Shown here piece by piece: positions 1 to 29,225 of a DNA stretch of 64,000 nucleotides. The notes under the pieces are model-generated. The model was not told the origin of the DNA. It saw nothing but the letters and a program-made list of their open reading frames with translations, and did no database searches. Positions within the stretch are counted from its first letter, which is position 1. Each line of letters starts with the position of its first letter. Source of the stretch: Streptomyces sp. NBC_01335 (GTDB lineage: Bacteria; Actinomycetota; Actinomycetes; Streptomycetales; Streptomycetaceae); contig NZ_CP108370.1 in the NCBI RefSeq assembly GCF_035953295.1, forward strand, positions 6,371,001-6,435,000, written 5' to 3'. The position numbers and the translations under genes were made by a program.

Positions 1-195
1 GCCCACGTCGGCATTCTCATGACCACGGGGGAGGCGTACGCCCACGACATCCAGACGTTCGTGGTGGGGGACGCCGTCGCCGACTTCACCCTGGCCGAAC
101 ACCGTATGACGCTCCAGTACGTCGCGACGCGCTGCGGTATGACGCTGCCCACCGACGCAGTGGTGCGGCAGCTGGAGGAGGCGAGCCGCTCATGA
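1..195 (+). CDS. phzD: PhzD-like isochorismatase, C-terminal part
   Basis: The reading frame enters from the left edge and ends at TGA 193-195, so only the last 64 residues are visible. They match the end of PhzD, which hydrolyses 2-amino-2-deoxyisochorismate (ADIC) to trans-2,3-dihydro-3-hydroxyanthranilate and pyruvate. The visible signature is the run AHVGILMTTGEAYAHDIQ followed by VVGDAVADF and a short C-terminal helix, in the same order as in Pseudomonas PhzD. No C-terminal carrier domain follows, unlike EntB-type isochorismatases. The stop overlaps the next start (ATGA), so it is translationally coupled to the ADIC synthase gene that makes its substrate. The active-site aspartate and lysine lie upstream of the window. 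Confidence 0.85.
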   Translation, partial: AHVGILMTTGEAYAHDIQTFVVGDAVADFTLAEHRMTLQYVATRCGMTLPTDAVVRQLEEASRS

Positions 196-2138
196 ACTCC
201 GGTGCCGACGAGGCGCGCTCCGGCACACCGCACCCGCTCCTGTCCCGGATCCTCGCCGCCGACCCGCCGCCGTTCGCCCTGCTGCACCGGCCGCAGGCCA
301 CCGGAGCGGACCGCCTGGAACTGCTGGTGGGCACGGTCTCCCAGCCCGGTTCGCTCGCCGAACTCCCACTGCCGCAGGGCCCCGGCTCCGACCGGCACGA
401 CGTGCTCGCCGTACTGCCCTACCGGCAGCTGGCCGAACGCGGCTATGCCTGCCTGGACGACGGCACCCCCTTGCTCGCCCTGACGGTCGAGGAACAGTGC
501 GGCCTGTCCCGGCAGGAGTTCCTGCGGGACGTCCCGGACGTGCCGATCAGGATGGACGAGCACGGCTTCGACGTCGACGACGAGGCGTACGCCGGCACGG
601 TGCGCCGGATCATCGAGGACGAGATCGGCCGGGGCACCGGCGCCAACTTCGTCTTCCGGCGCACCTACCGGGCGGATCTGGCGGACTGGGGCACGGCTAC
701 CGCCCTGGCGTTCTTCCGCCGGCTGCTCCAGGGCGAATCCGGCGTCTACTGGACGTTCCTGATCCACACGGGCGAGAGGTGCCTCGTCGGCGCGACCCCG
801 GAACGGCACGTGAGCCTGCTCGGCGGCGCCATGACGATGAACCCCATCAGTGGCACCTACCGATATCCCGAAGGCGGCGCGGATGCCGACGGGGTGATGA
901 GATTCCTGCGGGACGCCAAGGAGTCGGACGAGCTTTTCATGGTCCTCGACGAGGAACTGAAGATGATGGGCCGGGTGTGCGACCGCGGCGGCCGGGTGCG
1001 CGGTCCGTACCTCAAGGAGATGGAGCGCCTCGCGCACACCGAGTACCTCATCGAGGGCTCCAGCAGCAGCGGCGTGCGCGAGATCCTGCGCGAGACCCTG
1101 TTCGCGCCGACGGTGACCGGCAGCCCGCTGGAGAGCGCGTGCCGGGTCATCGGCAAGTACGAACCCCACGGCCGGGGCTACTACAGCGGTGTGGCGGCCC
1201 TCGTCGGCCGGGACGCCGACGGCGAGGTCGCCCTGGACTCGTCGATCCTCATCCGCACCGCGGACGTCGACCCGGCGGGCAGGCTCAGCATCGGAGTCGG
1301 CGCCACCCTGGTGAGGCACTCCTCTCCGCAGGCCGAGGTGGCCGAGACCCGGGCGAAGGCCGCCGGGCTGCTGTCCGTGCTGCGCGGCGAACCCGACACG
1401 AGGCACCCGGCACAGCACGACGCCGCGGCGTCGGCGCGCGGACCGGCACTGAGGGACCACCCCGACGTGGTGGCCGCACTGGCGAACCGCAACGCCACTC
1501 TGGCCGGCTTCTGGCTGGCGAACCCTGACGACCGCGGGTGCCCGGACGACCGGCTGGCCGGCCGGCGCCTCCTCGTCGTCGACGCGGAGGACACCTTCAC
1601 CTCCATGGCCCGGCACTGCCTCGCCTCGCTGGGCCTGGACGTGACGGTGCGCCGCTTCGACGAGCCGTACACCCTCGACGACCAGGACTTCGTGATCGTG
1701 GGGCCCGGACCCGGAGACCCGGGGCTGCACGGCGACTCCAAGATCGCGCACCTGCGGGATCTCACCCGGGGGCTGCTGGACTCCCGTACCCCGTTCCTCT
1801 CCGTGTGTCTCGGGCACCAGGTGCTGAGTTCACTCCTGGGGCTCGACATCGTGCGCAAGGCGGAGCCCAATCAGGGGTCCCAACAGAAGATCGACTTCTT
1901 CGGCCGACCGGAACTCGTCGGTTTCTACAACACGTTCGCCGCGCACTCGGCCTCGGCCACCCTGTCCTGCCCGTTCCGGGGCGCCGAGATCCGGGTCTGC
2001 CGCGATCCGGGCAGCGGTGAGGTGCACGCACTGCGCGGCCCCGGCTACGCCTCGGTCCAGTTCCATCCGGCGTCCGTCCTCACGAGCAACGGAACCGCCG
2101 TCCTGCGCGAACTCCTCGTCGGCGTGGCGGAAGGCTGA
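192..2138 (+). CDS. phzE: PhzE-like ADIC synthase (fused aminase and glutamine amidotransferase)
   Basis: This 648-residue enzyme should convert chorismate and glutamine-derived ammonia to ADIC. Residues 1 to about 400 are the chorismate-binding domain of the anthranilate synthase family (NPISGTYRYP, the DELFMVLDEELKMMGRV helix, and YYSGVAAL). Residues about 455-648 are a class I glutamine amidotransferase with nucleophile Cys539 in SVCLGHQ and His625 in VQFHPASV. The fused architecture and the N-terminal HPLLSRIL...PPFALLHRP motif fit PhzE (about 630 aa) rather than TrpE or TrpG. The oddity is Ala627: family members normally have Glu after His-Pro to complete the Cys-His-Glu triad. ATG 192 overlaps the phzD stop. 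Together phzD and phzE supply dihydrohydroxyanthranilate. No dehydrogenase or PhzF homologue is visible nearby. Confidence 0.88.
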   Translation: MNSGADEARSGTPHPLLSRILAADPPPFALLHRPQATGADRLELLVGTVSQPGSLAELPLPQGPGSDRHDVLAVLPYRQLAERGYACLDDGTPLLALTVEEQCGLSRQEFLRDVPDVPIRMDEHGFDVDDEAYAGTVRRIIEDEIGRGTGANFVFRRTYRADLADWGTATALAFFRRLLQGESGVYWTFLIHTGERCLVGATPERHVSLLGGAMTMNPISGTYRYPEGGADADGVMRFLRDAKESDELFMVLDEELKMMGRVCDRGGRVRGPYLKEMERLAHTEYLIEGSSSSGVREILRETLFAPTVTGSPLESACRVIGKYEPHGRGYYSGVAALVGRDADGEVALDSSILIRTADVDPAGRLSIGVGATLVRHSSPQAEVAETRAKAAGLLSVLRGEPDTRHPAQHDAAASARGPALRDHPDVVAALANRNATLAGFWLANPDDRGCPDDRLAGRRLLVVDAEDTFTSMARHCLASLGLDVTVRRFDEPYTLDDQDFVIVGPGPGDPGLHGDSKIAHLRDLTRGLLDSRTPFLSVCLGHQVLSSLLGLDIVRKAEPNQGSQQKIDFFGRPELVGFYNTFAAHSASATLSCPFRGAEIRVCRDPGSGEVHALRGPGYASVQFHPASVLTSNGTAVLRELLVGVAEG

Positions 2139-2625: not shown

Positions 2626-3174
2626 TCAGCAGAGCGTGTGCCGCCCCCGTCCGACCTTCCGCACCAGACCCTTCTTGCACAAGCGGTCGAGGGCCGACGA
2701 CACGATGGAGTCAGGCCGCCGGGAGTCGCGCAGCAGGTCCGTTTTGCCCTCGTCGCGCAGGCGCTCGATGATCGTGACGAGGTCCCGCGTGCGCAGCGGA
2801 TCCTGTGCCGTGGACAGCACGTCAAGGATCATCTCCTGAATGGAGAACGGCTTGCTCGCGCGGTAACCCGTGGAGTCGGCGCTCACCGCCGCGGGCGCGG
2901 TCGGCTCCGGCGGGGTTGCCTGCCCGGTGATCTCCACCGTGACGGCGCGCACGGCGGAGGACGTCTCCGTCTGGCCCGGCTGGAACTGGTCCAGCGAGGT
3001 GCTGAGGGTCTCCAGGAGATCCAGCTTCCGCTGCGCTTCTTCCAGTTGGGTGCTCAGCGCCTGGACCGTGTCCGCCTGCGCCCGCAACTGTTGGCGTACC
3101 AGCAGCAAGGTCTCGCGCACCACGGAATGACCGCCTGATGCTGTGGCCATGAAATCCTCCGCTGTCGTCGCCAT
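2626..3174 (-). CDS. Small protein with coiled coil and winged helix
   Basis: This 182-residue protein has no confident family match. Residues about 20-68 form a heptad-rich helix (LVRQQLRAQADTVQALSTQL and following), expected to be a coiled coil that oligomerises. A low-complexity linker covers residues 75-110. Residues about 113-182 look like a winged helix (ILDVLSTAQDPLRTRDLVTI, then a basic stretch and a KKGLVRKVGRGRHTL wing), resembling HARE-HTH-type modules. It is likely a DNA-binding or scaffolding regulator of this cluster. It is the last gene of the leftward run, 119 bp after the preceding gene, so it may have its own promoter. The ATG at 3174 was chosen because it starts the coiled-coil protein cleanly; a weak GGAAT precedes it. 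Confidence 0.7.
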   Translation of the reverse strand: MATTAEDFMATASGGHSVVRETLLLVRQQLRAQADTVQALSTQLEEAQRKLDLLETLSTSLDQFQPGQTETSSAVRAVTVEITGQATPPEPTAPAAVSADSTGYRASKPFSIQEMILDVLSTAQDPLRTRDLVTIIERLRDEGKTDLLRDSRRPDSIVSSALDRLCKKGLVRKVGRGRHTLC

Positions 3175-3293
3175 GCGGATTCCGTTTCAACTAAGCCTGC
3201 TGGAACGCAAGGATCGCAAGTCTTCCTGAGTTCGGACAGAGCATGCCCGGGACGCGGAAGCATGAATCCGCCGTTATTTCCTGGTGTATTCGA

Positions 3294-5207
3294 TTACCGG
3301 AGATCCGACTCGTCCGAGCGGACGTGATCGGATTCGCCCGGCGGAGCCGGAGCCAGCCTCATCATGGAAGACGAGGCGATGTAGGCCCCGTTCACGATGG
3401 CGATGAATACCCCGGTGTGGACGTCCGGACGCGGCTGGTGACCGACCAGATCGATCTCGGCGGTGAATTCCTCCTTCTGGCCCGGCAGCACGGCAATCGG
3501 CGCGCTGACCTCGGGCGGTAGCCCCAGGAATCGACGCATCGCGAAAGCGAATCCGATTCCACCGCGCAGAATGTGCTCGGAATCGTTGCGCAGGCTCCGG
3601 GACAGGCCGGTGACGCGACCCGACACGGCATCCGTGTCCAGAGCTCCTTCGAGTACGAACGCTGGTTCGTCCGATTCCTCGCTGGTCCACCATAGGTCAC
3701 CGCAGCGCCTGCACTGGAGGGTCCGCACGGTCAGATTGGCGTGCACCACGTGTCTCATGACGATGAGGGCGGCCCTGTCCCGCGCACAGTTCGGGCAGGT
3801 CGCGGGGCGTTGGGACACCTCGCGCAGCCCGTCGAGCGACGGGCCTCCGTAGTTCCATCCGTTCACATAGATGTCATGAACGATCGCGGCGGCCGTGGCG
3901 TGCTGGAACGCGGCGAGGTCGGTCTCGATCCCGGCGACCAGCGAAGCCAGGTCCGGCGCCTGAAGGTCCTCGGCGACCTCGCGCACCCGGACGCGGAACC
4001 CTTCCACGGCGAGGGCGTCGACCCCAGGCTCCAGCCAGCAGAGGCGTTCCAGGCGGGGGAGGACCACGTTGTTCACGTAGGCCAGGTCCCGGACCGCCTC
4101 ACCATCCCGCCGGCCTGCCGCCTCCACCGCCTTCGCGAGGTGGGCGCCTTCGGCCCGTCCGGCCGGCAGACCGAGGACGAGGCCGGGGTCGCCGAGCAGG
4201 CCGAAGCGGTTCAGCCAGCCGTTGATCGGATGCGCCCGCTCGTTCAGGCGCTCGACGGCGTGGCCGAGTGGCAGGTTCTCCGAGAGAGCGCCCTCCAGGT
4301 CCTGCTGCGCCCCCCGCTGCACGATGTGGACACCCAGCGCGCCGATGACCGCGACGGCGGTTCCTTCCAACAACCCGAGCCCCAGCGCGACATGGTGGGG
4401 GTAGGCGTTGGTGCCCACGGCGATGGACGAACAGCTGTGGGTGAAGACCACGGTCGCGTGCAGTTCCGCCGCAGGCAGGCGCCGATCCGCAGCCAGGTCG
4501 GCGCGGTGGCAGCCCGCGCCGTGCATGCACGGCATGTGCCGGTACGTGTGGTCGGTGGGGGGCAGCGGAGCATCGATCGCGTCGGACCGGCCGCACAGGA
4601 TGCCGTCGGGCAGCGCCGCACAGCACTCCTTGCCCAGCGCCTTGAGCACCAGCAGCCTCGGCCTGCGCCGGCCGAGTTCGAGGATGTCCTCGAACTCGTT
4701 GGTGTCGGCCAGTTCGGCGTCTTCGAGCATGGGGTGGGTGGCCACGAAGACGCGGTCCTCAGCCGCCGCATGGGCGGTGAGGCTCCGGTAGACCAGGCAG
4801 GTCAGTGCGGCCAGGTCGCGCGCGGTGACCACGCCGACCACCGCGCCGTGGGCGCCCGGCCAGTCGCCGGAGGCGGTGATGTCCTCGGCCAGACCGACCA
4901 CGGCGACGAGTTCACCGGCCCGCGGGGCGAGTTCGCGCGCGAGGGCGCCGGGTCCCACCACACGGTGCTCACGGCCCGTTGCGACGGCCAGCAGCCGGCC
5001 TGCGGAGCCCGCGTCGCCGCCGACGCTGATCACCGTTCCCGCCCGCGGGGCGGTGTCCACCTCCGGCAGTCGCCCTTCGGGGAACAGCGACCGATAGCGG
5101 TCCAGCGAAGGGCCGGCCAGCACGGGGAAGGGCAGGCCCTCGCTCCAGGCGTCCGCCCGCTCGCGGTAGTCGGCGATGCTCCGGCAGGGCACGACGTGGG
5201 CGTTCAC
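3294..5207 (-). CDS. Caspase-fold-like (CHAT/C25-type) protein with C-terminal zinc ribbon
   Basis: This is a 637-residue protein of unestablished function. Residues about 205-300 show the caspase-fold pattern of CHAT and gingipain-type proteins. His229 lies in CMHGAGCH. Thirty residues later Cys259 lies in VVFTHSCSSIAVGTN, followed by a Gly/Ala-rich strand (LLEGTAVAVIGALGVHIV) like the GA-sVig segment of CHAT domains. A zinc ribbon is formed by Cys471-x2-Cys474 and Cys499-x2-Cys502. The N-terminal 200 residues look like an alpha/beta domain. The start is GTG 5207, which overlaps the stop of the A-PCP gene (GTGA) with GGAGAG upstream. That coupling suggests it acts with the A-PCP protein, perhaps as a protease, transpeptidase or acyl-transfer partner. 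The His-Cys assignment is by pattern only. Confidence 0.6.
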   Translation of the reverse strand: MNAHVVPCRSIADYRERADAWSEGLPFPVLAGPSLDRYRSLFPEGRLPEVDTAPRAGTVISVGGDAGSAGRLLAVATGREHRVVGPGALARELAPRAGELVAVVGLAEDITASGDWPGAHGAVVGVVTARDLAALTCLVYRSLTAHAAAEDRVFVATHPMLEDAELADTNEFEDILELGRRRPRLLVLKALGKECCAALPDGILCGRSDAIDAPLPPTDHTYRHMPCMHGAGCHRADLAADRRLPAAELHATVVFTHSCSSIAVGTNAYPHHVALGLGLLEGTAVAVIGALGVHIVQRGAQQDLEGALSENLPLGHAVERLNERAHPINGWLNRFGLLGDPGLVLGLPAGRAEGAHLAKAVEAAGRRDGEAVRDLAYVNNVVLPRLERLCWLEPGVDALAVEGFRVRVREVAEDLQAPDLASLVAGIETDLAAFQHATAAAIVHDIYVNGWNYGGPSLDGLREVSQRPATCPNCARDRAALIVMRHVVHANLTVRTLQCRRCGDLWWTSEESDEPAFVLEGALDTDAVSGRVTGLSRSLRNDSEHILRGGIGFAFAMRRFLGLPPEVSAPIAVLPGQKEEFTAEIDLVGHQPRPDVHTGVFIAIVNGAYIASSSMMRLAPAPPGESDHVRSDESDLR

Positions 5208-7036
5208 GCGCCGCTCTCCTTCCCCGTACCGGCCACGAGGGCCGCGACGCGCTCCGGGTCGGGGGCGTAGGTCTCCAGCATGCGGGCCTGTGCGCCGAGC
5301 GTGGCGTGGGAGTAGAAGGCGCGCAGCGGCGGCCTGATCTCCAGGTCCTGGCGGATTCTCGCGTTGAGGCGTCCGAGGAGGAGGGAGTGGCCGCCCATCC
5401 GGAAGAAGTTGTCCTCGGGGGCGAGGCTGTCCACCTCCAGCAGGTCGCGCCACATGGCCGACAGGGCCTGCTCCAGCGGGGAGAGCCCGTCCGCGGGCGT
5501 CCCCGGCGCGGTGCCCCGCTCGTCCCGGCCGCCTTGGTCGTGCGGGGAGCCGAGCGCGGCGAGGGCCGTGCGGTCGACCTTGCCCATGGGCGTGAGCGGC
5601 AGCCGGTCCACCACCGTCAGCCGGGGCACCATCCACTCCGGCAGGTCACGCGCCAGGTCGTCCCGAACCCGGGCGGCCGTGTCCGGGGCAGCCGTGGCGG
5701 CCGGCACCACGAAGCCGGCGAGAACGCGGTCGGCCTCCGTGCCGCGGAGCACCACGCAGGCGTTCGCGACCTCGGGGTGGGCGAGCAGCCGCGCCTCGAT
5801 TTCGCCGAGCTCCACGCGGTGTCCGCGGATCTTGACCTGGTGGTCCGTGCGTCCGAGGTAGACGAGCACGCCGCCGGCGTCCCGCCGGACGAGATCGCCC
5901 GTGCGGTAGAGGGCGAGGTCCGTACGCTCCGGGTGGGGCACGAACACGCCGGCCGTCTGCTCGGGGCGGTTGAGGTAGCCCAGGCTGAGGCAGGGGCCCG
6001 ACATGTACAGCTCGCCGCGCACACCGTCGGGCACCGGACGGAGCTCCTCGTCGAGGACGTGGGCCTCCAGACCGGGCAGCGGCGTGCCGATCGGGATGAT
6101 CCGGGTCTCGTCGGTCACGCCGGAGACGACGTGCCGGATGACGAAGGTGGTGGTCTCGGTGGGGCCGTAGACATTGGCCAGCGTGCCGGACAGAGAGGCG
6201 AGCACGTCGCGGGCCCGCCGGGGGTCCATGGGCTCGCCGCCGACGAGGAGCAGCCGCAGGGGTGCGAACGCGGCGGGATTCTGCAGGGCGATCTCGTGGA
6301 AGACCGACGTGGCCGTGATCATGGCGGTGATGCCGTGTCGCCGGTACTCCTCGCCGAGCAGTCCGCCGTCGGTCAGCAGTTCCCGGGGGAGGATCACGAG
6401 GGTGGCGCCGGACAACAGCGTCGCCCATATCTCGTACGTGATCGCGTCGAACGCGGGACTGGTGAGCTGGGCCGTGCGGTCTCCAGGAGCGAGGGACAGG
6501 TCCGGGTCGGGTCCCGTGACGTTCGCCAGGAAATGGGCGATGCTCGCGTGACCGACCAGAACGCCCTTGGGCGTGCCGGTGGTGCCCGAGGTGTAGTACA
6601 CGATGGCCGGGGCGTCCGGCGCGACGACGGGCGGATCGACAGGCGCTCCGCCCGCGGCCGGGGCCGTTCCGACGTCCTGGAGGACCAGTTCGGAGGGGAA
6701 CCGGTCCGCCAGCTCGGCGGAGGTGATCACACAGGAGGCGCCGCTGTCGGCCAGGATGAAGCGGTGGCGGTTGACGGGCTGTTCGGGCTCCATCGACACA
6801 TAGGCCGCGCCCGCCTTCCACACGCCGAGAAAGGCGGCGATGCGCCCGCATCCCGGCGGAAGGCACACGCCCACGAACGAGCCGGGACCCGCGCCCCGGT
6901 CGAGCAGCAGGCGCGCCACGCCCTCCGCCGCCCGGTCGAGCTCCGCATACGTCAGTTGCTCGCGAGCATCCGGATGGGAAACGGCCACCGCATCGGGAGT
7001 CCGCTCGATCTGCTTGGTGAACAGAGTGTCCAACAT
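5204..7036 (-). CDS. NRPS adenylation-thiolation didomain protein
   Basis: This 610-residue NRPS protein activates one acid or amino acid as its adenylate and loads it onto its own carrier domain. The A domain spans residues about 1-500: P-loop core YYTSGTTGTPKGV (148-160), FDAITYEIW (the A4 region that begins the specificity code), NVYGPTETT, LYRTGDLVRR, RGHRVELGEIEARL and the A10 lysine in PMGKVDR. The carrier domain covers about 525-600, with phosphopantetheine Ser551 in MGGHSLLLG. There is no condensation or release domain, so it needs a partner such as the stand-alone C enzyme at 27 kb. It is the first gene of a leftward operon and diverges from the dioxygenase operon. I cannot infer the substrate reliably from the code. 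Confidence 0.92.
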   Translation of the reverse strand: MLDTLFTKQIERTPDAVAVSHPDAREQLTYAELDRAAEGVARLLLDRGAGPGSFVGVCLPPGCGRIAAFLGVWKAGAAYVSMEPEQPVNRHRFILADSGASCVITSAELADRFPSELVLQDVGTAPAAGGAPVDPPVVAPDAPAIVYYTSGTTGTPKGVLVGHASIAHFLANVTGPDPDLSLAPGDRTAQLTSPAFDAITYEIWATLLSGATLVILPRELLTDGGLLGEEYRRHGITAMITATSVFHEIALQNPAAFAPLRLLLVGGEPMDPRRARDVLASLSGTLANVYGPTETTTFVIRHVVSGVTDETRIIPIGTPLPGLEAHVLDEELRPVPDGVRGELYMSGPCLSLGYLNRPEQTAGVFVPHPERTDLALYRTGDLVRRDAGGVLVYLGRTDHQVKIRGHRVELGEIEARLLAHPEVANACVVLRGTEADRVLAGFVVPAATAAPDTAARVRDDLARDLPEWMVPRLTVVDRLPLTPMGKVDRTALAALGSPHDQGGRDERGTAPGTPADGLSPLEQALSAMWRDLLEVDSLAPEDNFFRMGGHSLLLGRLNARIRQDLEIRPPLRAFYSHATLGAQARMLETYAPDPERVAALVAGTGKESGA

Positions 7037-7414: not shown

Positions 7415-8263
7415 ATGCTCAAAGGTAGCTTTACCGAGAACTCATCGGACGACCACTGTCGACTCCGTGCCCAACTCCTTTCTGAAAATAGTGCGTTGGC
7501 GCAGCCTGCCGTAGGATTCCCGGCCACGGCAGCGGACTTCCCCGGGGAGATCCTCGACGGGATCGACAGGGACCTCGTCCGGTACGGGCTCGGCGTCGTC
7601 CGGCTGGACGAGCCGCTTCCCAACGGCCTTTTCAGGAAGCTGGGTTCGGCACTCGGGACCGTGACACCCGAGACCGCTCCCGACATCCAGTCCTACGTTG
7701 AGGACGGTGTCGTCCTCAACCTCCGGGCCGATGCCGGAATCACGCAGGACGTCTCCCTCCAGCCCTTCGCCAGCAACCCCCTGTCCCTGCACAGCGAGGG
7801 CAGCGGACGCGCCGTCGCGGACCAGCCCCGCTACATCGTGCTCATGTGCGTGGAACCGGGCGACAACTCCGCCTCCACCGTCCTCGTCTCCATGGACGAG
7901 GTCGCCGCCGGCCTCGACGCCGAGGACCTCCGCCTGCTCCGCGCCACCCGCTACGCCGACGCCCCCGGCGTGCCCCCCGTCGTGCGGTCCCAGGGGGACC
8001 ACGTGGTCTTCGCCTTCCGCGATTTCCAGCAGGACACCCTGCGCTGGGTCTGCGAGGCGGACGGAGCCTCGCCGGAGGCCGTCAACGGCGCCCTCGGCCG
8101 CCTGCTCACCCGCATGTACGAAGCCCGGGGCGCTTCGGGCGTGCTCTGGTCCCGTGGGCTGCTCGTCGTCATCGACAACACCCGGTTCTTCCACGGGCGC
8201 ACGGCCGGGCTGCCCCGAGCGGCGGCCAGGACACGCCATCTCAAGAGGCTCCGCATCCGCTGA
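7415..8263 (+). CDS. Fe(II)/2-oxoglutarate dioxygenase, clavaminate synthase-like
   Basis: This 282-residue cytosolic oxygenase belongs to the TauD/clavaminate synthase group. The iron ligands are visible as His126 and Glu128 in LSLHSEGS and His260 in DNTRFFHGRT, with Arg near 273-278 as the likely 2-oxoglutarate anchor. The HxE form of the triad is that of clavaminate synthase and of beta-hydroxylases of free amino acids such as VioC and AsnO. I therefore infer hydroxylation or desaturation of an amino acid or tethered acyl group. Its length fits that subfamily, which usually runs 300-350 aa, though it is slightly short. It heads the rightward operon. ATG 7415 follows a GGGGGTAGAG stretch. 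Confidence 0.82.
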   Translation: MLKGSFTENSSDDHCRLRAQLLSENSALAQPAVGFPATAADFPGEILDGIDRDLVRYGLGVVRLDEPLPNGLFRKLGSALGTVTPETAPDIQSYVEDGVVLNLRADAGITQDVSLQPFASNPLSLHSEGSGRAVADQPRYIVLMCVEPGDNSASTVLVSMDEVAAGLDAEDLRLLRATRYADAPGVPPVVRSQGDHVVFAFRDFQQDTLRWVCEADGASPEAVNGALGRLLTRMYEARGASGVLWSRGLLVVIDNTRFFHGRTAGLPRAAARTRHLKRLRIR

Positions 8264-8350
8264 CGCGTCCCGTCCCACCCATGGGTGGGCGCGCGCGGGC
8301 AGCGCCCGGAGCGTCCCCCACTGGCCCCCTTCTTCTCCCTTGGAGACGGC

Positions 8351-11851: not shown

Positions 11852-11910
11852 CACCGCGCCCACCCGGCCCCGTCGAAACCGCTCACCAGCACACAGCCAA
11901 GGAGACACCC

Positions 11911-17064: not shown

Positions 17065-17072
17065 GAGACGCC

Positions 17073-21584: not shown

Positions 21585-21699
21585 ACTCCGTCCACTCCAG
21601 CGCGAGGGCCGTCCGCGAGGTATGCCCGTGCGCACCAGCCGAGGAGCGTTGCCCCATGCCGCCGAGCCGCCGTGCCGCCCGACACCCCGGGCCGACAGC

Positions 21700-22770
21700 G
21701 TGACCGGGACGGACTTCCGGATCGTGGAGCTGACGGATCTCCTGACGGAGACCGACGCGGCGACCAGGTCCGAGGCCGACGCCGCGGCGGGTACCGGACC
21801 GGCACGCACCGTCTGGGACGCGACGTCCGTCGCACTCCTGCCGCCCCGGCTCGGCCGCCCCTACCTGCGCCCGGGGGACTGCCGCGCGGTAGTCGCCTCC
21901 AGAGCGGGCCGCCCCGTCGGCATTCTTCCGCTGCTGCGTGGCACGCCCGGCCAGACCCCGCAGGCCCTTCAGGACCCCGGACCGGAGCTCGCCGCCCGCC
22001 TGCCGGCGGACTGCGGTGACCTGCTGTTCGTCGGCGGATGCGTCGACCTGGTCGCCGGTGCCGCCGTGGCCGCGGAGTTGACCGACGAGGAGCGCCGCAC
22101 CGTGCGCCACGGTCTGGTGGACCGGGCCTGGGACCGGGCCCGCCGCGACGGCCTCGTCCCGCTCGCCCTGCACGTGCGGGACGCCGAGGTCGCCGACTTC
22201 CTCGGCCCCGGCCGGCGGGCCGCCGAGATCGGTGTGTCCTGCCTGCTCCGCCTGCCCGCCGACGGCTCCGACGCCTCCTACCTGGCAGGCCTCGGCCGGA
22301 GTGGCCGCCGCACCGTCCTCAAGGACCGCCGCTCGGCGGCCGGGGCCGGACTCCGCTCCGAGGTCCGCCCGGCCGGGGAGCTGACGGCCGAGGCCGCGGA
22401 ACTCGTCGTAGCTGTCAAGCGGCGGTACGGCGTGGAGGAGCACCCCCGGCTGGTGCGCGCCCGGCTCGCCCGCTGGGCCGCCGACCCCGCCGGCGAGCGC
22501 GTCGCCTTCGCGGTGTGCGACGCCGACGGCCCCGTGGCCGTCACCTTCGGCTGCGTGCTCGGCACCGGCCTGGAGATCTACGAGACGGGCCTCGCCGACG
22601 GGCACCCGCATCGCCACGAGGCGTACGCCGAGAGCCTCTTCCAGGCACCGATCGCCTTCGCGCAGGCACGAGGGATCACCGAGATCGACCTCGGCCTCGA
22701 CGCGACCATCCCCAAGACCCGGCGAGGGGCGACCCTCGCGCCGACCTGGGCCGTCACATCCGACCAGTGA
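21700..22770 (+). CDS. GNAT-superfamily acyltransferase (BioF2-like/Acetyltransf_6)
   Basis: This 356-residue protein resembles the GNAT/FemX-type double-domain acyltransferases. The second half shows the family pattern: SYLAGLGRSGRRTVLKDRRS, a central ELVVAVKRRYG helix, AFAVCDADGPVAVTFGCVLG and IYETGLADGHPHRHEAYAES. The first half is a diverged copy of the same fold. FemX-like members transfer aminoacyl or acyl groups, so amide formation from a thioester is possible. The start is uncertain: GTG 21700 was preferred, but ATG 21622 is in frame and would add 26 residues; neither has a strong ribosome site. It is followed 12 bp later by a carrier protein gene, a possible acyl donor. Confidence 0.75.
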   Translation: MTGTDFRIVELTDLLTETDAATRSEADAAAGTGPARTVWDATSVALLPPRLGRPYLRPGDCRAVVASRAGRPVGILPLLRGTPGQTPQALQDPGPELAARLPADCGDLLFVGGCVDLVAGAAVAAELTDEERRTVRHGLVDRAWDRARRDGLVPLALHVRDAEVADFLGPGRRAAEIGVSCLLRLPADGSDASYLAGLGRSGRRTVLKDRRSAAGAGLRSEVRPAGELTAEAAELVVAVKRRYGVEEHPRLVRARLARWAADPAGERVAFAVCDADGPVAVTFGCVLGTGLEIYETGLADGHPHRHEAYAESLFQAPIAFAQARGITEIDLGLDATIPKTRRGATLAPTWAVTSDQ

Positions 22771-22782
22771 AAGAGACAGAAC

Positions 22783-23013
22783 ATGGACACGACGATCGAC
22801 GACATCGTGCGGGCCGAGTGGTGCGAGGTGCTCGACGTGACCTCGCCCGACCCGTGTGACGACTTCTTCGAGATAGGGGGCAACTCGCTGCTGGCCGTCA
22901 GCCTGGTCGAGCGCGTCGAGTCGCGGATCGGAGCGGAGGTGGCCCTGGAGGACTTCTTCCTCGACGGCCGCCTTCAGACCCTGGTCTCCGCAGCCCGCGC
23001 CGCAGCGAACTGA
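22783..23013 (+). CDS. Stand-alone peptidyl carrier protein
   Basis: This 76-residue PCP has phosphopantetheine site Ser35 in FFEIGGNSLLAV. The GGNSL form is typical of NRPS peptidyl carriers. It has no fused domains and is exactly one carrier domain long. Likely partners are the stand-alone adenylation enzyme (25,616-27,100), the condensation enzyme (27,097-28,386), and the neighbouring GNAT and ATP-grasp proteins. ATG 22783 follows an AAAGAGACAG stretch. It needs a phosphopantetheinyl transferase; one is encoded at 51,891-52,544. Confidence 0.9.
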   Translation: MDTTIDDIVRAEWCEVLDVTSPDPCDDFFEIGGNSLLAVSLVERVESRIGAEVALEDFFLDGRLQTLVSAARAAAN

Positions 23014-23025
23014 GCCCGCGGAACC

Positions 23026-24375
23026 ATGTCCGCTCCCGCACTGCCCCGGCTCGGGATCTGCCACGCCCCGGACGGCGCGGCCAACCTGCGCGAGGTGTTC
23101 CGCGCCGCCCGTGACCTGTGCGTCCCGGTCATCCTGGTCGACGCGCGGGTCGCCGCCGCGCACCCGGACCTGGTGGCGCTGGCCTCCCGAATCCTGGAAT
23201 GCCACGTCCTCCCGGAGAGCGACGTCCCGGAGGCCGTCGCCGACCTGGTGACCGGCCTCGGCCTGGCCGGCGTCACCACTTTCCACGACGACGAGCTGGA
23301 ACGGGCCGACGCGCTGGACCGCCTGGTCCGCCGGGCGCCCGCACCGGCCGTCGCGGCCCCCTGGGACAAGCTGGTGCAGCGTCAGGTGCTGCACGCCGCC
23401 GGGCTGTCCGCCGTGCGCGCCGAAGCCGTCGACTCGCCCGAGGAGCTCCACCGGGCGTACGCGGCGCTGGGCGGCTCCTGCGTCCTCAAACCCCGGCGGG
23501 CCGCCGGCGGCAGGGGGATCGCCTTCCTGGACGGCTGGGACGACATTGCCGCGCACGTCGCCGCACGCCGTGTGTGGGACGGGATGCTCCTGGAGACCAG
23601 GATCCCGGCCGCCCCGCACCCCTCCGGGACCCCCTGGCTCGGCAGCCTGATCTCCGTCGAGACCGTCAGCGCCGGCTCCCGCCGGGTCCACCTCGGGGTC
23701 CTTGACAAGCTGCCCGTCGCCGTCGGCCGCCACGAGGGGCCGGACGGCACGGACGCGGTGAACGTCCAGGGCGACATCCTGCCCTCGGCGCTCCCCGCCG
23801 GCCTCCTCGACCGGGCCCGTGAACTGACCGGCCGGGTCCTGGACGCGCTGGAGGTCCGCGACCGCGTCACCCACACCGAACTCCTCCTCACCCCCGCCGG
23901 GCTGGAGGTCATGGAGGTGAACGGACGTCTCGCCGGCCACACCGCCCGGCTGTTCCGGCTCGTCGGCGCCCCCGACCCGGTCCGTACGGCCCTGGCCGCC
24001 GCGCTCGGCGGCGAACCGAACACCACCGCAGCGCCCGAGGGGACGGCCGCGGGCCTCTTCCCGACCTTCCGGGACCGCACCGGCACCGTCCGCACCCAGC
24101 TGCGCCCGCGCGACCTGAGGGAACTCCCCGGGGTGCAGGCCGTGGACGAACTCGCCCGGGACGGCGAGGAGAAGGCGGCCCTCCAGTACCGCATGGCCAA
24201 CCTCACCGTGCGCGCCGACGACCGCCCCGGCCTCGACCACGCCGTCACCCGCGTCCTCGCCACCCTCACCGAGGGCTTCGCCGACCCGGCCGGCATACCG
24301 GACACCCACCCGGACGCCTCCGCCGCGGCCGCACCGGGCCCCGACACCACCAAGGAGCAGCCGAGATGCGTCTGA
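23026..24375 (+). CDS. ATP-grasp ligase
   Basis: This 449-residue protein belongs to the ATP-grasp superfamily, which forms amide or similar bonds through acyl-phosphate intermediates. The nucleotide-binding core is visible as CVLKPRRAAGGRGIAFL (strand and Gly-rich lid). The metal-binding end appears in HTELLLTPAGLEVMEVNGRLAG, with the E...N/E ligands. The N-terminal 100 residues form the pre-ATP-grasp Rossmann-like lobe (LGICHAPDG, VPVILVDAR, GVTTFHDDELE). The layout resembles dipeptide ligases of the BacD/carnosine synthase type found in natural-product clusters. The 3' end overlaps the MFS gene by 10 bp. It probably joins two building blocks of the product. Confidence 0.88.
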   Translation: MSAPALPRLGICHAPDGAANLREVFRAARDLCVPVILVDARVAAAHPDLVALASRILECHVLPESDVPEAVADLVTGLGLAGVTTFHDDELERADALDRLVRRAPAPAVAAPWDKLVQRQVLHAAGLSAVRAEAVDSPEELHRAYAALGGSCVLKPRRAAGGRGIAFLDGWDDIAAHVAARRVWDGMLLETRIPAAPHPSGTPWLGSLISVETVSAGSRRVHLGVLDKLPVAVGRHEGPDGTDAVNVQGDILPSALPAGLLDRARELTGRVLDALEVRDRVTHTELLLTPAGLEVMEVNGRLAGHTARLFRLVGAPDPVRTALAAALGGEPNTTAAPEGTAAGLFPTFRDRTGTVRTQLRPRDLRELPGVQAVDELARDGEEKAALQYRMANLTVRADDRPGLDHAVTRVLATLTEGFADPAGIPDTHPDASAAAAPGPDTTKEQPRCV

Positions 24376-25592
24376 GGCAGTCCCTCGAACCGTTCAGGCA
24401 CCGCCGGTTCGCCTACCAGTACGCCGGCTTCACCGTGTCCGTCATCGGCAACACGCTCAGCCAGGTCGCGGTCACCGTCGGCCTGCTGGAGGTGACCGGC
24501 TCCGGCGCCACTGCCGGTCTCGCCCTCAGCACCTCCACCATCACCCTCGTCGTCTGCATCCTCTTCGGCGGGGTCTGGGCCGACCGCCTGCCCCGGCACC
24601 TGGTCATGGCGGCGATGGACTGCGTCCGCGCCGCCAGCCAGATCGGCGTCGGTGTCATGCTGCTCGCGGACACGGTCAATCTGCCGCTCCTTCTCGTCCT
24701 CCAGATGTGCTTCGGCGCTGCGCAGGCCTTCCACCTGCCCGCCTCCGCCGGCCTCACCCGCTTCACCGTCCCCAAGGACCAGCTCCAGCGCGCCAACACC
24801 CTCCTCTCCTTCGCCCGCAGCATGTCCGGCGTGCTCGGACCGCTGCTCGCGGGGGTGCTGATCGCCACCGTCGGCGCCGGCTGGGCGCTGATCGGCGACG
24901 GACTGTCCTTCCTGGTCAGCTCCGCCTGCGCGGCCCTGATCAAGCTGCCCCGCCGGGAGACTCCGCGCCAGAAGGACGGCACCCTGCGCGAACTCGCGGC
25001 CGGCTTCCGGCTGGTCCGCACCACCCCCTGGATCTGGACCAGCATCGCCGGATTCATGTGCACGCACGTGGCCGTCGCCGTCTTCATGGTCGTCGGACCG
25101 GTACTCGCCGCCCAGAACGACAGCGGCGTCTGGCAGTGGTCGCTCCTCATCGCCGCCCTCGGTATCGGCGACGTTCTCGGCGACCTCTTCCTGCTCCGCT
25201 ACCAGCCGCAGCGGCCCATGCTCGTCGCACGGCTCGCCGAACTCCTCCTCGTCCCCATGCTGCTCCTGATCGCCTGGGGCGCCCCGCTCCCGGTCCAGAT
25301 CGTCGCCGTGGCCCTGGCGGGCGCGGGGATGACCGCCGCCGACTCCCTGTGGCTGACGACCATGCAGCACGAGGTGCCGGAGGACTCCATGTCGAAGGTC
25401 TCCTCCTACGACTGGCTCAGCTCCGTCGCCCTGCGACCCGTCGGCTTCGCCCTCGGAACCACCTTCGCGGGCGGCGGCCTGGCCGTCGTGCTCGTCTGCC
25501 TGGCCGTGCTGGTCCTCGCCTCCCGTCTCGTGAGCCTCGCCCACCCGAGCGTCCGGGCCCTGCGCACCCCGGCCGACGCCCTGGCGCACTGA
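24366..25592 (+). CDS. MFS exporter, EntS-like
   Basis: This 408-residue membrane protein has about 12 predicted hydrophobic helices and matches the EntS/enterobactin-exporter group of the major facilitator superfamily. The N-terminal RQSLEPFRHRRFAYQYAGFT, the helix 2-3 loop GGVWADRLPRHLVMAAMD and the domain-3/4 segment RFTVPKDQLQRANTLLSFAR are typical. It likely exports the cluster product or acts in self-resistance. It overlaps the end of the ATP-grasp gene and precedes the adenylation gene by 23 bp, so it is made with the biosynthetic enzymes. Confidence 0.9.
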   Translation: MRLRQSLEPFRHRRFAYQYAGFTVSVIGNTLSQVAVTVGLLEVTGSGATAGLALSTSTITLVVCILFGGVWADRLPRHLVMAAMDCVRAASQIGVGVMLLADTVNLPLLLVLQMCFGAAQAFHLPASAGLTRFTVPKDQLQRANTLLSFARSMSGVLGPLLAGVLIATVGAGWALIGDGLSFLVSSACAALIKLPRRETPRQKDGTLRELAAGFRLVRTTPWIWTSIAGFMCTHVAVAVFMVVGPVLAAQNDSGVWQWSLLIAALGIGDVLGDLFLLRYQPQRPMLVARLAELLLVPMLLLIAWGAPLPVQIVAVALAGAGMTAADSLWLTTMQHEVPEDSMSKVSSYDWLSSVALRPVGFALGTTFAGGGLAVVLVCLAVLVLASRLVSLAHPSVRALRTPADALAH

Positions 25593-25615
25593 CCCCGACA
25601 CCCCCGGAGAATCCC

Positions 25616-27100
25616 ATGCATGACGTCGTGTCCGCGATCGCGGAGCAGACCGGACGCGGTCCGGACCGGATCGCCCTGCGTGTGGCCGAACGGGAACACA
25701 CCTACGCCGAGCTGTGGCGGGCCGCCGGCTCCGTCGCCGCACGCCTCGGCCCGCGCCCCGGCCGCGTCGGGCTCGTCTTCCGCCGGGAGTTCCCCACCTA
25801 CGCCGCGTACCTGGGCATCCTCCGGGCCGGTGGCGCCGTCCTGCCGATCGGCCCCCGGTGGCCGCAGAAGCGGATCCGGGAGGTTTTGGACCACGCGGCT
25901 CCCGCGACCGTTCTCGTGGACGGCGAGGTTCCGGACCCGGCGACGTTCGAGGGGGTGCGCCTCGTCTCCGCGGCCGACCACCTGGACGGGACCGGCCCCG
26001 CCCCGGCCGGGGTCGAGGCGGAGCCCGGCCAGGAGGCCTACGTGCTGCACACCTCGGGCTCCACCGGCCGCCCCAAGGGCGTCCCCGTCGACCACCGGGC
26101 GCTCCGGGCCTACCTCACCCACGTCATCGACCGGTACGAACTCGGCCCCGGCTGCCGGATGGCCCAGGCCGCCGACCTCACGTTCGACGGGTCGGTCTTC
26201 GAGATCCTCGCCGCGTGGGCGTCCGGGGCCGGCCTGGTCGCCGCCGCCGGACACTCCTGGCGCTCCCCGGCCCGCTTCCTCGCCGAGCACGCCATCACCC
26301 ACCTGGACACCGTCCCCTCGGTGATCGCCATCGCCCGCCGTATGCGTACCCTCGGCCCCGGAGCCCTGCCCGACCTGCGGTGGAGCATGTTCGGCGGCGA
26401 ACAGCTCACCTACGAGGCGGCCGCCGCGTGGCGCGCGGCCGCCCCCGGCTCCGTCGTGGAGAACATCTACGGCCCTACCGAACTGGCCGGCGTCTGCGTC
26501 AGCTACCGCATGCCGGACGACCCCACGCTCTGGCCCGACACCGGCAATGGCACCGTCCCCATCGGCACCGTCTACCCCCACCTGGAGGAGACCGTCCTCG
26601 ACCCCGCGGGGCTCCCCGCCGACGACGGTGAACTGTGCGTCCGGGGCCCCCAGCGGTTCGCCGGGTACGTCGATCCTGCCGACGACCGGGGCCGGTTCCT
26701 GCGGGGACCCGCGCCCCACGCCCCCGTCGTGGGACGCCCCGCACCCGAGGACTGGTACCGCACCGGCGACCGGGTCCGTCGCCAGGACGGCCTCCTCGTG
26801 CACTGGGGCCGCGTCGACCGGCAGGTCAAACTCCGCGGCCACCGGGTCGAACTCGACGAAGTGGAGGCGGCCGTACGCGGCCGGGCCGGGGTCCGCGAGG
26901 CCGCGGTCGTCGTCGTCGACTCCCAGCTCGTTGCCACCTACACCACCGACACGGCGGACGGCGTGACCGGCGGCGACCTGCGCGCGCACGTGGCCGCGCT
27001 GCTGCCCGACTACATGGTCCCCGTCGTCTGGCGGCAGATGGACGAACTGCCGCTGACGCAGAACGGCAAGCTCGACCGCGCCCTCCTGGAGCGCGCGTGA
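25616..27100 (+). CDS. Stand-alone NRPS-type adenylation enzyme
   Basis: This 494-residue A domain has no carrier fused. Core motifs include HTSGSTGRPKGVP (145-157), FDGSVFEIL (A4 region), ENIYGPTELAG, DWYRTGDRVRRQDG, KLRGHRVELDEVEAAV and the A10 lysine in PLTQNGKLDR. It activates an amino or aryl acid and probably loads the free PCP encoded at 22,783-23,013. Start ATG 25616 has GGAGA upstream. Its stop overlaps the start of the condensation gene (GTGA). The substrate cannot be read safely from the motifs. Confidence 0.92.
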   Translation: MHDVVSAIAEQTGRGPDRIALRVAEREHTYAELWRAAGSVAARLGPRPGRVGLVFRREFPTYAAYLGILRAGGAVLPIGPRWPQKRIREVLDHAAPATVLVDGEVPDPATFEGVRLVSAADHLDGTGPAPAGVEAEPGQEAYVLHTSGSTGRPKGVPVDHRALRAYLTHVIDRYELGPGCRMAQAADLTFDGSVFEILAAWASGAGLVAAAGHSWRSPARFLAEHAITHLDTVPSVIAIARRMRTLGPGALPDLRWSMFGGEQLTYEAAAAWRAAAPGSVVENIYGPTELAGVCVSYRMPDDPTLWPDTGNGTVPIGTVYPHLEETVLDPAGLPADDGELCVRGPQRFAGYVDPADDRGRFLRGPAPHAPVVGRPAPEDWYRTGDRVRRQDGLLVHWGRVDRQVKLRGHRVELDEVEAAVRGRAGVREAAVVVVDSQLVATYTTDTADGVTGGDLRAHVAALLPDYMVPVVWRQMDELPLTQNGKLDRALLERA

Positions 27101-28386
27101 CCGGGCCGGGAGACGTCCGACTCTCCCACGCCCAGCAGCGGTTCCTCTGGGACGAGGAGATGACACCGGGCCAGGACGACAACAACGTCATCCTCGCCTA
27201 CCACCTCACGGGCCCCGTCGACGCGGACGCGATGAGCGCCGCCCTCGACGACGTGCTGCGCCGTCACGAGGTGCTGCGCACCGTCTACCTGTGGGACGTG
27301 GCCGCCGAGCCCGTTCAGCGGATCACGACGGCCGAGGCCGCCGGGATCGCCCTGGAACACGTCACGGTGACCGACCTCGACCTCCCCCCGGCCGACCTCG
27401 CGGCGCGCGTGTGCGCGGACTGGTGGGACAGCCCCTTCGACCTGGAGCGGCGCCCGCCCGTCCGCGCTCGCCTGGCCGCACTCGCCCCGGAATCCTGGCT
27501 GCTCTGCCTGAACGTCCATCACATCGCCTTCGACGGGCAGTCCGAACTGCTCCTCGCGGCGGACCTCGGCACCGCCTACGAAGCCCGGGCGGCCGGCCGG
27601 GCCCCCACGTGGGACGCCGTTCCCGGATACAGGGAGTACGCCCGCTGGGAGCCCGACCGGATCCCGGTCTGGGCGGAGAACGACCTCCCGTTCTGGCGGA
27701 AGGTGCTCGCGGACCCCGCCCCGGCCCTGCTGGCGCCCCCCGAGACCGACCAGGGTGCCCGGGGCGAGTACGAGATCGCTCTGGACGCGGCCACGACGGA
27801 CCGCATCCGAGGCGGGGTCCGGGCCGCCCGCTCCATCGTGCTGTCGGCCCTGCTCCATGAGACGTCCGCCGCCGTCGGCGACGTCTTCGGAGTGGACGCG
27901 GTGAACCTCACGACTGTCTCCTCCGGCCGATTCGAGAAGGCCCACGCCCCGATCCTCGGCTGCTTCGTCAACCCCCTCGTCCTGCCCCTGCGCGGTCTGA
28001 GGACGACGGACTCCGTCACACGCCTGACCGAGGTGAACCGGCTGGTGCTCCAGGCACTGCGGCGCGCCCGCCTCCCCTTCGACCTCATCGCCCGCGACCT
28101 GGGCATCCAGGCCACCGACGCGGGACTCTTCGACGTGATGGTGGCCCTCCAAGCCCCTGAGCCCGGCGGCGCGTTCGCCTCCGGCGTGACGTACCGCCCC
28201 CTGCGCGTCAGCGCGCCCCGGGCGGGCTTCGGGCTGGTCGTGGAGCTCGAACAGAACGTCGCGGGCCACTGGGTGGTGGCCGGCCGCTGGCGGCGGGACC
28301 TCGTCGAGGAGCCGATCGGCCGCCAGGTCGTTGAGTCCCTGACCGAACGCCTGCTCGCCCTTCCCCACCGGGCAGGCATCCGATGA
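27097..28386 (+). CDS. Stand-alone NRPS condensation enzyme
   Basis: This 429-residue condensation domain has the active-site motif HHIAFDG (141-147), the N-terminal LSHAQQRFLWDEE and the C-terminal latch-type segments. It should form an amide or ester bond between two carrier-bound acyl groups, or between a carrier-bound group and a soluble amine. It is the only C domain in the window. It follows the A gene with a GTGA overlap and precedes the NUDIX gene with an ATGA-type overlap. Donor and acceptor may be the A-PCP protein at 5,204-7,036 and the free PCP at 22,783 (inference). Confidence 0.92.
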   Translation: MTGPGDVRLSHAQQRFLWDEEMTPGQDDNNVILAYHLTGPVDADAMSAALDDVLRRHEVLRTVYLWDVAAEPVQRITTAEAAGIALEHVTVTDLDLPPADLAARVCADWWDSPFDLERRPPVRARLAALAPESWLLCLNVHHIAFDGQSELLLAADLGTAYEARAAGRAPTWDAVPGYREYARWEPDRIPVWAENDLPFWRKVLADPAPALLAPPETDQGARGEYEIALDAATTDRIRGGVRAARSIVLSALLHETSAAVGDVFGVDAVNLTTVSSGRFEKAHAPILGCFVNPLVLPLRGLRTTDSVTRLTEVNRLVLQALRRARLPFDLIARDLGIQATDAGLFDVMVALQAPEPGGAFASGVTYRPLRVSAPRAGFGLVVELEQNVAGHWVVAGRWRRDLVEEPIGRQVVESLTERLLALPHRAGIR

Positions 28387-29225
28387 CCCGACGGACCGAC
28401 GACGCACAGGTGGTCGCGGTCGACGGCGACACGATCCTGCTCCGGGACGGCGCCCGGGGCCCCGAACTCGCCGACCTGGCGCTGCCGCCCCCGGCCGAGG
28501 GCCAGGTGACGGGAACGGACGCCGAGGGCAGGCCCTACCTCGCCGTGCCGCGCGCCGACGTCCCTCCCGGAACCCGCCGCGCCCGCCTGATCGACGTCCT
28601 GGACGAGCTCCCCCCGGCGCAGGCCAACATTGCGCTGCGCGCCGTCGGATTCCACCAGTGGGTACGCACGTCTCCGAACTGCCCGCGCTGCGGTACCCCG
28701 GCCGGCCTCCGCACCGACGGCCGCTCCCGCTGGTGCGCGTACTGCGCGACCGAGCACCACCCGCGCACCGACCCCGCCGTGATGATGTCGGTCACCGACG
28801 ACCGGGACCGCCTCCTTCTCGCACGCCGCGCCGTGGCGCCGCCGGGCCGGATGTCACCTCCGGCGGGATTCGTCGAGCCCGGCGAGACCGCCGAGGAGGC
28901 GGCGGCCCGGGAGCTGCTGGAGGAGGTCGGCGTACGCGCGACGGACGTCACCTACGTCGCCAGTCAGGCGTGGCCCTTCCCCGGCAGCCTGATGCTCGCC
29001 TTCGCTCTGCGCGCTGCCTCGCCGCGGATCACCGTCGACGGTGACGAGATTGTCGCCGCCCGATGGTTCACCCGCGAGGAACTGGGGACCGCGATACGCG
29101 AGGGGGCTCTGATCCCGCCGCCCCCCGGCTCCCTCGCGGTGAAGCTGGTCAAGCGCTGGTACGGCCCCGGGTACGACGCGCTCGCCGGCCGCACCGCGGA
29201 GCGCGGTCCGGTGCCCGGGGCGTGA
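28383..29225 (+). CDS. nudC: NudC-type NUDIX hydrolase (NAD(H) pyrophosphatase-like)
   Basis: This 280-residue protein has the NudC layout. A zinc ribbon with Cys100, Cys103, Cys118 and Cys121 is followed by the NUDIX box (162-184, GFVEPGETAEEAAARELLEE). Next comes SQAWPFPGSL (194-203), close to the SQPWPFPxS signature of NADH pyrophosphatases. Such enzymes cleave NAD(H) to NMN(H) and AMP or remove NAD caps from RNA. Its start overlaps the condensation gene, so it is co-translated with biosynthetic genes. That is unexpected for a housekeeping enzyme and raises the chance of a pathway-specific diphosphate substrate. Confidence 0.88.
   Translation: MTRRTDDAQVVAVDGDTILLRDGARGPELADLALPPPAEGQVTGTDAEGRPYLAVPRADVPPGTRRARLIDVLDELPPAQANIALRAVGFHQWVRTSPNCPRCGTPAGLRTDGRSRWCAYCATEHHPRTDPAVMMSVTDDRDRLLLARRAVAPPGRMSPPAGFVEPGETAEEAAARELLEEVGVRATDVTYVASQAWPFPGSLMLAFALRAASPRITVDGDEIVAARWFTREELGTAIREGALIPPPPGSLAVKLVKRWYGPGYDALAGRTAERGPVPGA

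Follow-up and report, generated by a model that had tools for sequence, protein, structure and literature searches.

A probable altemicidin-type gene cluster beside the end of a benzoxazole-type operon in Streptomyces sp. NBC_01335

The sbz cluster of Streptomyces sp. NCIMB 40513, the cluster for altemicidin, SB-203207 and SB-203208, is the closest described system for the locus studied here. In the parts of the published accounts available to us, no NAD-derived natural products of this type are named apart from these three compounds; SbzP joins β-NAD and SAM; and roles are given for a methyltransferase (D), carrier proteins (G/K), a GNAT (I), an aldehyde dehydrogenase (ALDH; J), an AMP-ligase (L), a cupin (M) and the PLP enzyme (P). 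The same accounts report that F, H, J and M-Q are essential for altemicidin. SB-203207/208 inhibit isoleucyl-tRNA synthetase. A second described system, the caboxamycin operon (cbxR, cbxA-I) of Streptomyces sp. NTK937, serves as a comparison for the left end of the locus only.

We analyzed a stretch of 64,000 nucleotides (the window), and coordinates below are positions within it. Its first 29.2 kb divides into two adjoining gene sets: a known benzoxazole-type operon finishes here, and an uncharacterized cluster follows at about 3.3-29.2 kb. Gene content, homology, synteny and separateness were observed directly, and they make it probable that the latter is an altemicidin-type (sbz-like) cluster in its own right, apart from the phzD/phzE pair at 1-2138, which belongs to a separate, chloro-caboxamycin-like operon.

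Counterparts of the altemicidin operon

Our link to sbz runs via three sbz-ordered loci (G175, G383 and G356) rather than via the SbzP sequence itself, and sbz letters are assigned by gene order. The gene row of G175 (MT-MT-LLM-ACP-epimerase-GNAT-ALDH-ACP-AMP ligase-cupin-SIS-BtpA-PLP-TauD-MFS) has 15 genes exactly as in sbzD-R, and is accompanied by a divergent set of IleRS-like, A and GNAT genes; each sbz role given in the accessible literature (A, B, C, D, G/K, I, J, L, M, P) fits the matching place. G383 and G356 carry all 18 genes, 17 of them 68-87% identical to those of G175; their second carrier gene, missed in gene calling, was recovered by tblastn (69-70%).

Twelve of the 15 proteins encoded by sbzD-R have counterparts in the window, covering sbzF-Q by homology and order. 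On the forward strand lie a TauD/VioC-type Fe/2OG oxygenase (7415..8263; SbzQ position), the SbzP-type PLP enzyme (8351..9922; a predicted NAD + SAM annulase), a BtpA/SgcQ-family protein (9915..10730; SbzO position), a GlmS isomerase-like SIS-domain protein (10766..11851; SbzN position), a short cupin (11911..12333; SbzM position), a free carrier protein (12333..12641; SbzK position), the AMP-ligase (12634..14238; SbzL position), the ALDH (14287..15639; SbzJ position), a luciferase-like (LLM, F420-type) oxidoreductase (20604..21584; SbzF position) and a free PCP with a GGNSL motif that we take as the SbzG counterpart (22783..23013). The reverse strand carries the GNAT corresponding to SbzI (18266..18805) and an aldose-1-epimerase family protein (19449..20399; SbzH position). 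Identity to G175 is 69% for BtpA, 68% for the PLP enzyme, 67% for ALDH, 65% for LLM, 64% for the epimerase, 58% for the GNAT (57.8% before rounding), 57% for TauD, 54% for the AMP-ligase and 42% for SIS. The window thus holds an N-acylation set (AMP-ligase, carrier protein and GNAT; L, K/G, I), counterparts of F, H, N, O and Q, and one for every gene reported as essential in the accounts available (F, H, J, M-Q).

The window differs from sbz in lacking the IleRS-like SbzA, SbzB and SbzC, and none of the genome's own matches to PF00133, PF00587 or PF00152 falls within it. Both methyltransferases (D, E) are also absent, as the scanned cluster proteins matched no methyltransferase family; in particular nothing of the SbzE kind was seen, so that the N-methyl of altemicidin may be missing from the product.

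These core genes (the SbzP-like PLP enzyme, BtpA, SIS, cupin, ALDH and others) are the decisive ones, and the first-pass annotation did not mention them. Thirteen right-hand genes were absent from its list: those for the PLP enzyme, TauD, BtpA, SIS, cupin, ALDH, GNAT, S51 peptidase, aldose epimerase, LLM oxidoreductase, BioF2-like GNAT, gingipain-fold protein and Nudix.

The left-hand operon and alternative readings

The window opens with the 3' end (last 64 codons) of a PhzD/CbxH-like isochorismatase gene (1..195, forward strand; whole gene L012:5545-6195, isochorismatase match 137 bits), the last but one of the left operon, and its final gene, for a PhzE/CbxI-like ADIC synthase (192..2138, forward strand). 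The left operon follows the caboxamycin order cbxA-I, with a SARP-type (BTAD) regulator encoded on the opposite strand: chorismate-binding enzyme, KASIII, AMP-ligase, ACP, amidohydrolase, DAHP synthase, SDR, isochorismatase and PhzE are common to both in the same order, and a tryptophan-halogenase-type enzyme, a flavin reductase and an antiporter are additional to cbx. No PhzF, PhzA/B or PhzG was found among the Pfam matches of the scanned left-operon and window proteins. The first-pass annotation had placed the pair in a single cluster, with dihydrohydroxyanthranilate as a building block of a peptide product, and had allowed that leftward sequence might assign the pair to a separate phenazine operon. 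The pair does belong to a separate operon, since it occupies the cbxH/cbxI positions, but that operon is of the benzoxazole type. The end of the pair and the gingipain-fold gene are about 1.2 kb apart, and sharing of a precursor within one strain is possible in principle; against this stand the cbxA-I order that the pair terminates, the switch of strand immediately after phzE and the absence of PhzD/PhzE homologs (E<=1e-5) from the regions read around this cluster in three relatives (G370, G392 and G393), so that a single cluster is hardly credible. A terminator scan of positions 2000-2800 found none. One lesson for genome mining is that phzD/phzE genes at the border of a cluster can stem from a neighboring benzoxazole operon.

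Within the right-hand cluster, the TauD protein and the PLP enzyme could instead be an arginine hydroxylase/cyclodehydratase pair, as GntD/GntC for enduracididine, making a small cyclic-arginine peptide. NCBIfam does list GntC for the PLP protein (71.5 bits) and GntD for the TauD protein (23.5 bits), but both scores are far under the cut-offs (415 and 345), whereas the PLP enzyme, with Lys333 in an SLSKN motif (codon at 9347), matches PseP residues 335-810 at 552-553 bits and the TauD protein matches PseP residues 2-281 at 184 bits. PseP (PDB 8k3h, 8k3i), which we take to be a homolog of SbzP and on which a literature search found nothing, has a TauD and then a PLP domain in the order of the window, fused in PseP and encoded by two genes here. 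The pair is moreover accompanied by BtpA, SIS, LLM, epimerase, GNAT, ALDH and AMP-ligase, as in the sbz-ordered loci, and we consider the arginine pair very improbable. The product core is best read as an NAD-derived 6-azatetrahydroindane, because SbzP joins β-NAD and SAM. Less clear is the fate of the sulfonamide arm: the same NAD + SAM core might be made without it, the short cupin and the ALDH giving a different small acid to be attached by AMP-ligase and GNAT. The window cupin has 140 aa, whereas those of G175, G383 and G191 have about 235 aa and are 36% identical to it over a part, and the short form is found in the window-type clusters as well as in G020 and G100; because of this, a sulfonamide is not assured for the window product. 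On the other side, the histidine pattern HTHPGxH...H is kept across 11 aligned cupin rows (by eye), and G175 and the window share 67% identity in the ALDH and 54% in the AMP-ligase. We regard the loss of the sulfonamide as possible but doubtful.

Additional genes and recurrence in relatives

Beyond sbz, the window holds A-PCP, A, C, ATP-grasp, BioF2-like GNAT, glycosyltransferase, radical SAM, S51 peptidase, gingipain-fold and Nudix genes and another MFS gene. On the reverse strand are the A-PCP didomain protein (5204..7036; AMP-binding + PP-binding), a macrolide-type (MGT-family) glycosyltransferase (15727..17064), a radical SAM protein (17073..18293; CX3CX2C at residue 161; PF13353 24.8 bits, over its cut-off of 22, PF04055 26.1, under 29.5) and an S51 dipeptidase-E-like hydrolase with a GYSAG motif (18802..19452). 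The forward strand carries a BioF2-like GNAT acyltransferase candidate (21700..22770; PF13480 in some relatives), an ATP-grasp ligase, distantly BacD-like (23026..24375), with a weak match (Pfam 19.8 bits against a cut-off of 27; BacD 22 bits) and relatives at three loci in one pattern scan of genome contigs, an MFS exporter (24366..25592; EntS model 88 bits, under the cut-off of 324), a free-standing A domain (25616..27100), a free-standing C domain (27097..28386; HHxxxD motif HHIAFD at residue 141) and a Nudix hydrolase (28383..29225; 176 bits against a curated NAD(+) diphosphatase cut-off of 158). Read by eye from an alignment at presumed positions, and too weak for naming substrates, the A-domain codes would be about DAYTLGVTFK for A-PCP, presumably hydrophobic-like, and about DGFDMGIGVK for the free A, with Asp at 278 and perhaps a basic amino acid. 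Every gene that the first-pass annotation had named is real: the PhzD/PhzE-like pair (which belongs to the other gene set), A-PCP, free A, free C, two free carriers, a third adenylate-forming ligase, ATP-grasp, radical SAM, glycosyltransferase and exporter were each located. The genes called at 1-29.2 kb include no modular NRPS or PKS, and the first-pass description of the cluster as non-modular and peptide-type, with a product that may be undescribed, holds, with dissociated NRPS parts and most of the set in four other genomes.

S. filamentosus (G370) and S. echinoruber (G392) have the cluster as well, and reduced versions are present in Nonomuraea sp. PA05 (G393; S51 and Nudix not found) and G002 (ATP-grasp, BioF2-like GNAT and Nudix not found). 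In a search of 396 genomes across the phylum, the PLP enzyme turned up in one, the own genome; in the PLP tree the window, G370, G392 and G002 form one clade (support 99/97), and G393 lies outside the other window-type enzymes with weak support. Nudix is present in three of the five window-type clusters (window, G370 and G392), and S51, ATP-grasp and BioF2-like GNAT in four each, window included; since each was not found in at least one of the five, none of these genes can be indispensable to the core that the clusters have in common. For S. echinoruber, no such alkaloid appears in the titles or abstract starts among the literature matches listed.

The gingipain-fold (C25-like) protein (3294..5207, reverse strand) has a C-terminal CxxC...CxxC, and its gene overlaps that of A-PCP by 4 bases. 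Foldseek's own top rows are mostly complement-type matches, and a second look matched the gingipain (C25) catalytic fold. Compared with the gingipains RgpB and Kgp, Cys259 is kept (invariant in 36 of 36 aligned rows) and there is an extra invariant Cys, but the residue before the invariant Gly230 is His in only 8 of the 36 rows, so that the His-Cys dyad of peptidase C25 is not conserved in this alignment; we assume the equivalence of these positions with the gingipain dyad from their spacing. Its relatives are named hypothetical or uncharacterized, or are unnamed, and gingipain-like or C25 peptidases were absent among the matches listed in a search of literature on gingipain-like proteins and NRPS; the protein apparently represents an undescribed NRPS-associated family. 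Next to it, a small protein without a Pfam match (2626..3123, reverse strand), of uncertain membership, has a homolog (about 60%) at the corresponding position in just one of four relatives, S. filamentosus.

Predicted pathway and product

The cluster probably builds a small bicyclic alkaloid from NAD and SAM and decorates it with amino acids, possibly also with a sugar; each reaction step and the product are predicted from homology. The PLP enzyme would join SAM and β-NAD by [3+2] annulation to a 6-azatetrahydroindane still bearing the ADP-ribose part; BtpA, SIS and the aldose-epimerase-like protein would remove nucleotide and sugar, joined in this strain by the NAD+-diphosphatase-like Nudix enzyme, which fits an NAD-derived core; and the LLM oxidoreductase and TauD hydroxylase would adjust the bicycle. 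Cupin and ALDH would then supply a small acid, which in sbz is 2-sulfamoylacetate derived from cysteine; the AMP-ligase would load the acid made here on a carrier protein, and the GNAT would move it to the amine. Other amino acids, added by A-PCP, free A, PCP, free C, BioF2-like GNAT and ATP-grasp ligase, would replace the Ile and β-methyl-Phe arms of SB-203208; the role of the glycosyltransferase may be sugar attachment or self-protection, and the MFS protein would serve export.

If this is true, the existence of a second family, tailored with peptides and sugars, would make the NAD + SAM scaffold a platform rather than a one-off, and relatives could be antibiotic leads because SB-203207/208 inhibit isoleucyl-tRNA synthetase. 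A bolder combined proposal, which we regard as rather unlikely, is that the product would be the first NAD-derived alkaloid to be both glycosylated and peptidyl, an altemicidin-like mimic of an aminoacyl adenylate that carries a non-isoleucine amino acid and is delivered as a sugar- and peptide-masked Trojan horse; S51 would unmask or disarm it, and the gingipain-fold protein, near NRPS genes in other clusters too, would be a new kind of NRPS partner, repurposed for a release or transfer step that depends on a carrier protein.

Self-resistance aminoacyl-tRNA synthetases were dropped as a clue to the target. PF00587 and PF00152 were counted in five genomes (G000, G370, G002, G392 and G393: 5, 6, 7, 5, 6 and 3, 1, 2, 1, 3 matches, respectively), and PF00133 in the own genome; because no extra copy is common to all five, no target is claimed. 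Two ValRS genes, 81% identical, are present in the own genome, against a single one in each of the 12 other genomes among the 13 PLP-bearing ones searched.

Two adjoining clusters

The first-pass annotation had assigned phzD and phzE to the same cluster as the peptide-type genes on their right. The window corresponds to G000:C1:6371001-6435000. The 20 kb directly to its left (L011, G000:C1:6351001-6371000) place both genes instead at the end of a caboxamycin-ordered operon, which spans L011 7849-20000 and window 1-2138. Read rightward, this operon encodes a tryptophan-halogenase-type enzyme, a flavin reductase, an antiporter, a chorismate-binding enzyme, KASIII, an AMP-ligase, an ACP, an amidohydrolase, a class II DAHP synthase and an SDR, and it ends with an isochorismatase (stopping at window base 195) and the PhzE-like gene; the opposite strand carries a BTAD (SARP-type) regulator. 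The gene order matches that of the caboxamycin cluster as outlined in PMC5481532, and we infer a halogenated, caboxamycin-like product; the added halogenase-type enzyme and flavin reductase suggest a chlorinated benzoxazole.

The natural border is the 487-base gap that separates the PhzE stop from the next opposite-strand gene, and the region holds two clusters, not one. By tblastn (E<=1e-5), PhzD and PhzE homologues are absent from 39 kb of Streptomyces filamentosus (G370), 51 kb of S. echinoruber (G392) and 52 kb of Nonomuraea sp. PA05 (G393), all carrying window-type clusters, as they are from 20 kb of a further relative (G002), a stretch that begins at the contig end with the flank outside it. 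A second PhzE-like gene (55%) lies elsewhere in the 8.36-Mb genome, beside a class II DAHP synthase (G000:C1:1977146-1979008).

A probable altemicidin-type core with added genes

Codon-usage gene calls, combined with family or structure-sequence searches, bore out the gene list of the first-pass annotation and added 13 genes that it had left unnamed, including TauD, a PLP enzyme, BtpA, SIS, cupin, ALDH, an LLM oxidoreductase and a Nudix hydrolase. In the PDB search, the TauD protein matches residues 2-281 of PseP (184 bits) and the PLP protein residues 296-810 (553 bits). At E<=1e-60 the PLP protein occurs in 11 of 392 Streptomyces genomes, this one counted, and in a phylum-wide search in 1 of 396, again this one; we read its gene neighbourhoods in all 10 other Streptomyces carriers.

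The SB-203208 (sbz) cluster is described as two operons (sbzA-C and sbzD-R) totalling 18 genes, with A being IleRS-like, B adenylation, C and I GNAT, D methyltransferase, G and K carriers, J ALDH, L AMP-ligase and M cupin (PMC6331615); SbzP is reported as a PLP enzyme that couples NAD with SAM (PMC11610977, PMC10491745). One sbz-ordered locus (G175) carries a row of two methyltransferases, LLM, ACP, epimerase, GNAT, ALDH, ACP, AMP-ligase, long cupin, SIS, BtpA, PLP, TauD and MFS, and on the other side an IleRS-like protein, an A domain and a GNAT, identified partly by family check and otherwise by homology to the window. Each sbz letter given a role above coincides with the matching gene there; E, F, H, N, O, Q and R were assigned from gene order only. 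Two further loci (G383 and G356) each carry all 18 genes, a family check of four G383 proteins giving two methyltransferases, MFS and IleRS-like.

The window holds counterparts of SbzF-Q and none of SbzA-E, and the exporter is a different MFS protein; its cupin is of the short type, as in genomes G020 and G100. Unlike sbz, the right cluster (window ~3.3-29.2 kb) also contains A-PCP, free A, free C, ATP-grasp, a BioF2-like GNAT (16 relatives among the matches listed), GT, radical SAM, an S51 peptidase and a Nudix protein that scores above the NAD+ diphosphatase cut-off. We consider it likely that the core is altemicidin-like, and the whole would be a cluster of the altemicidin kind with peptide tailoring and probably sugar tailoring; we are less confident about the sulfonamide, amino acids, sugar and target of its product. 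The combination was partly foreseen in print, because the review PMC9113183 reports SbzM homologues adjoining sbz-like, PKS, NRPS and ATP-grasp genes, in clusters for which it describes the natural products as unknown; our search of open-access papers, mostly at listing level, found no description of it.

Six other Streptomyces genomes, which lack the PLP enzyme, encode homologues (36-42%) of the gingipain-fold protein (window 3294-5207) in the same stretch as A-domain genes (L080-L089, L091). A PLP/BtpA/TauD/SIS/LLM/epimerase/GNAT/AMP-ligase/Nudix set lies at G137:C1:3587000-3637999 (L031, L032, L093), with no cupin or ALDH match within the 51 kb read; this locus may represent a third type of NAD-derived cluster.

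The right cluster in relatives

The right cluster forms one unit, from which certain relatives have lost genes. Its nearest named relative among three loci found, S. filamentosus, has every gene at 80-94% identity and the small protein (window 2626-3123) at about 60%; S. echinoruber has all genes except this small protein. In Nonomuraea sp. PA05 the set is rearranged, the small protein is absent, as are S51 and Nudix, and one carrier is detected by tblastn only (41%); G002, on a 24.6-kb contig that stops shortly past the C gene, likewise has neither the small protein nor Nudix, and it also lacks ATP-grasp and the BioF2-like GNAT. Given their uneven presence, Nudix, S51, ATP-grasp and the BioF2-like GNAT would serve tailoring or replaceable functions. 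In a tree of the PLP proteins, the window sequence joins those of G370, G392 and G002 in one clade (support 99/97), and the Nonomuraea protein is placed outside it with weak support; the peptide arm and the core therefore may not share one history. Between its ALDH and GT genes, S. filamentosus has an additional 241-aa ORF that matches no Pfam family (L027 3762-4487), where the window has only 87 bases.

Aminoacyl-tRNA synthetase genes elsewhere in the genome

Two class II aaRS-like (PF00152) matches lie near each other about 120-130 kb to the left of the window (G000:C1:6241872-6242816 and G000:C1:6247681-6248589); G370 and G392 have no such extra match. The genome also carries two ValRS genes, 81% identical (G000:C1:4804018-4806648 and G000:C1:2597067-2599685), with one each in the other 12 PLP-bearing genomes searched; the extra gene may be a copy that gives resistance to a different product.
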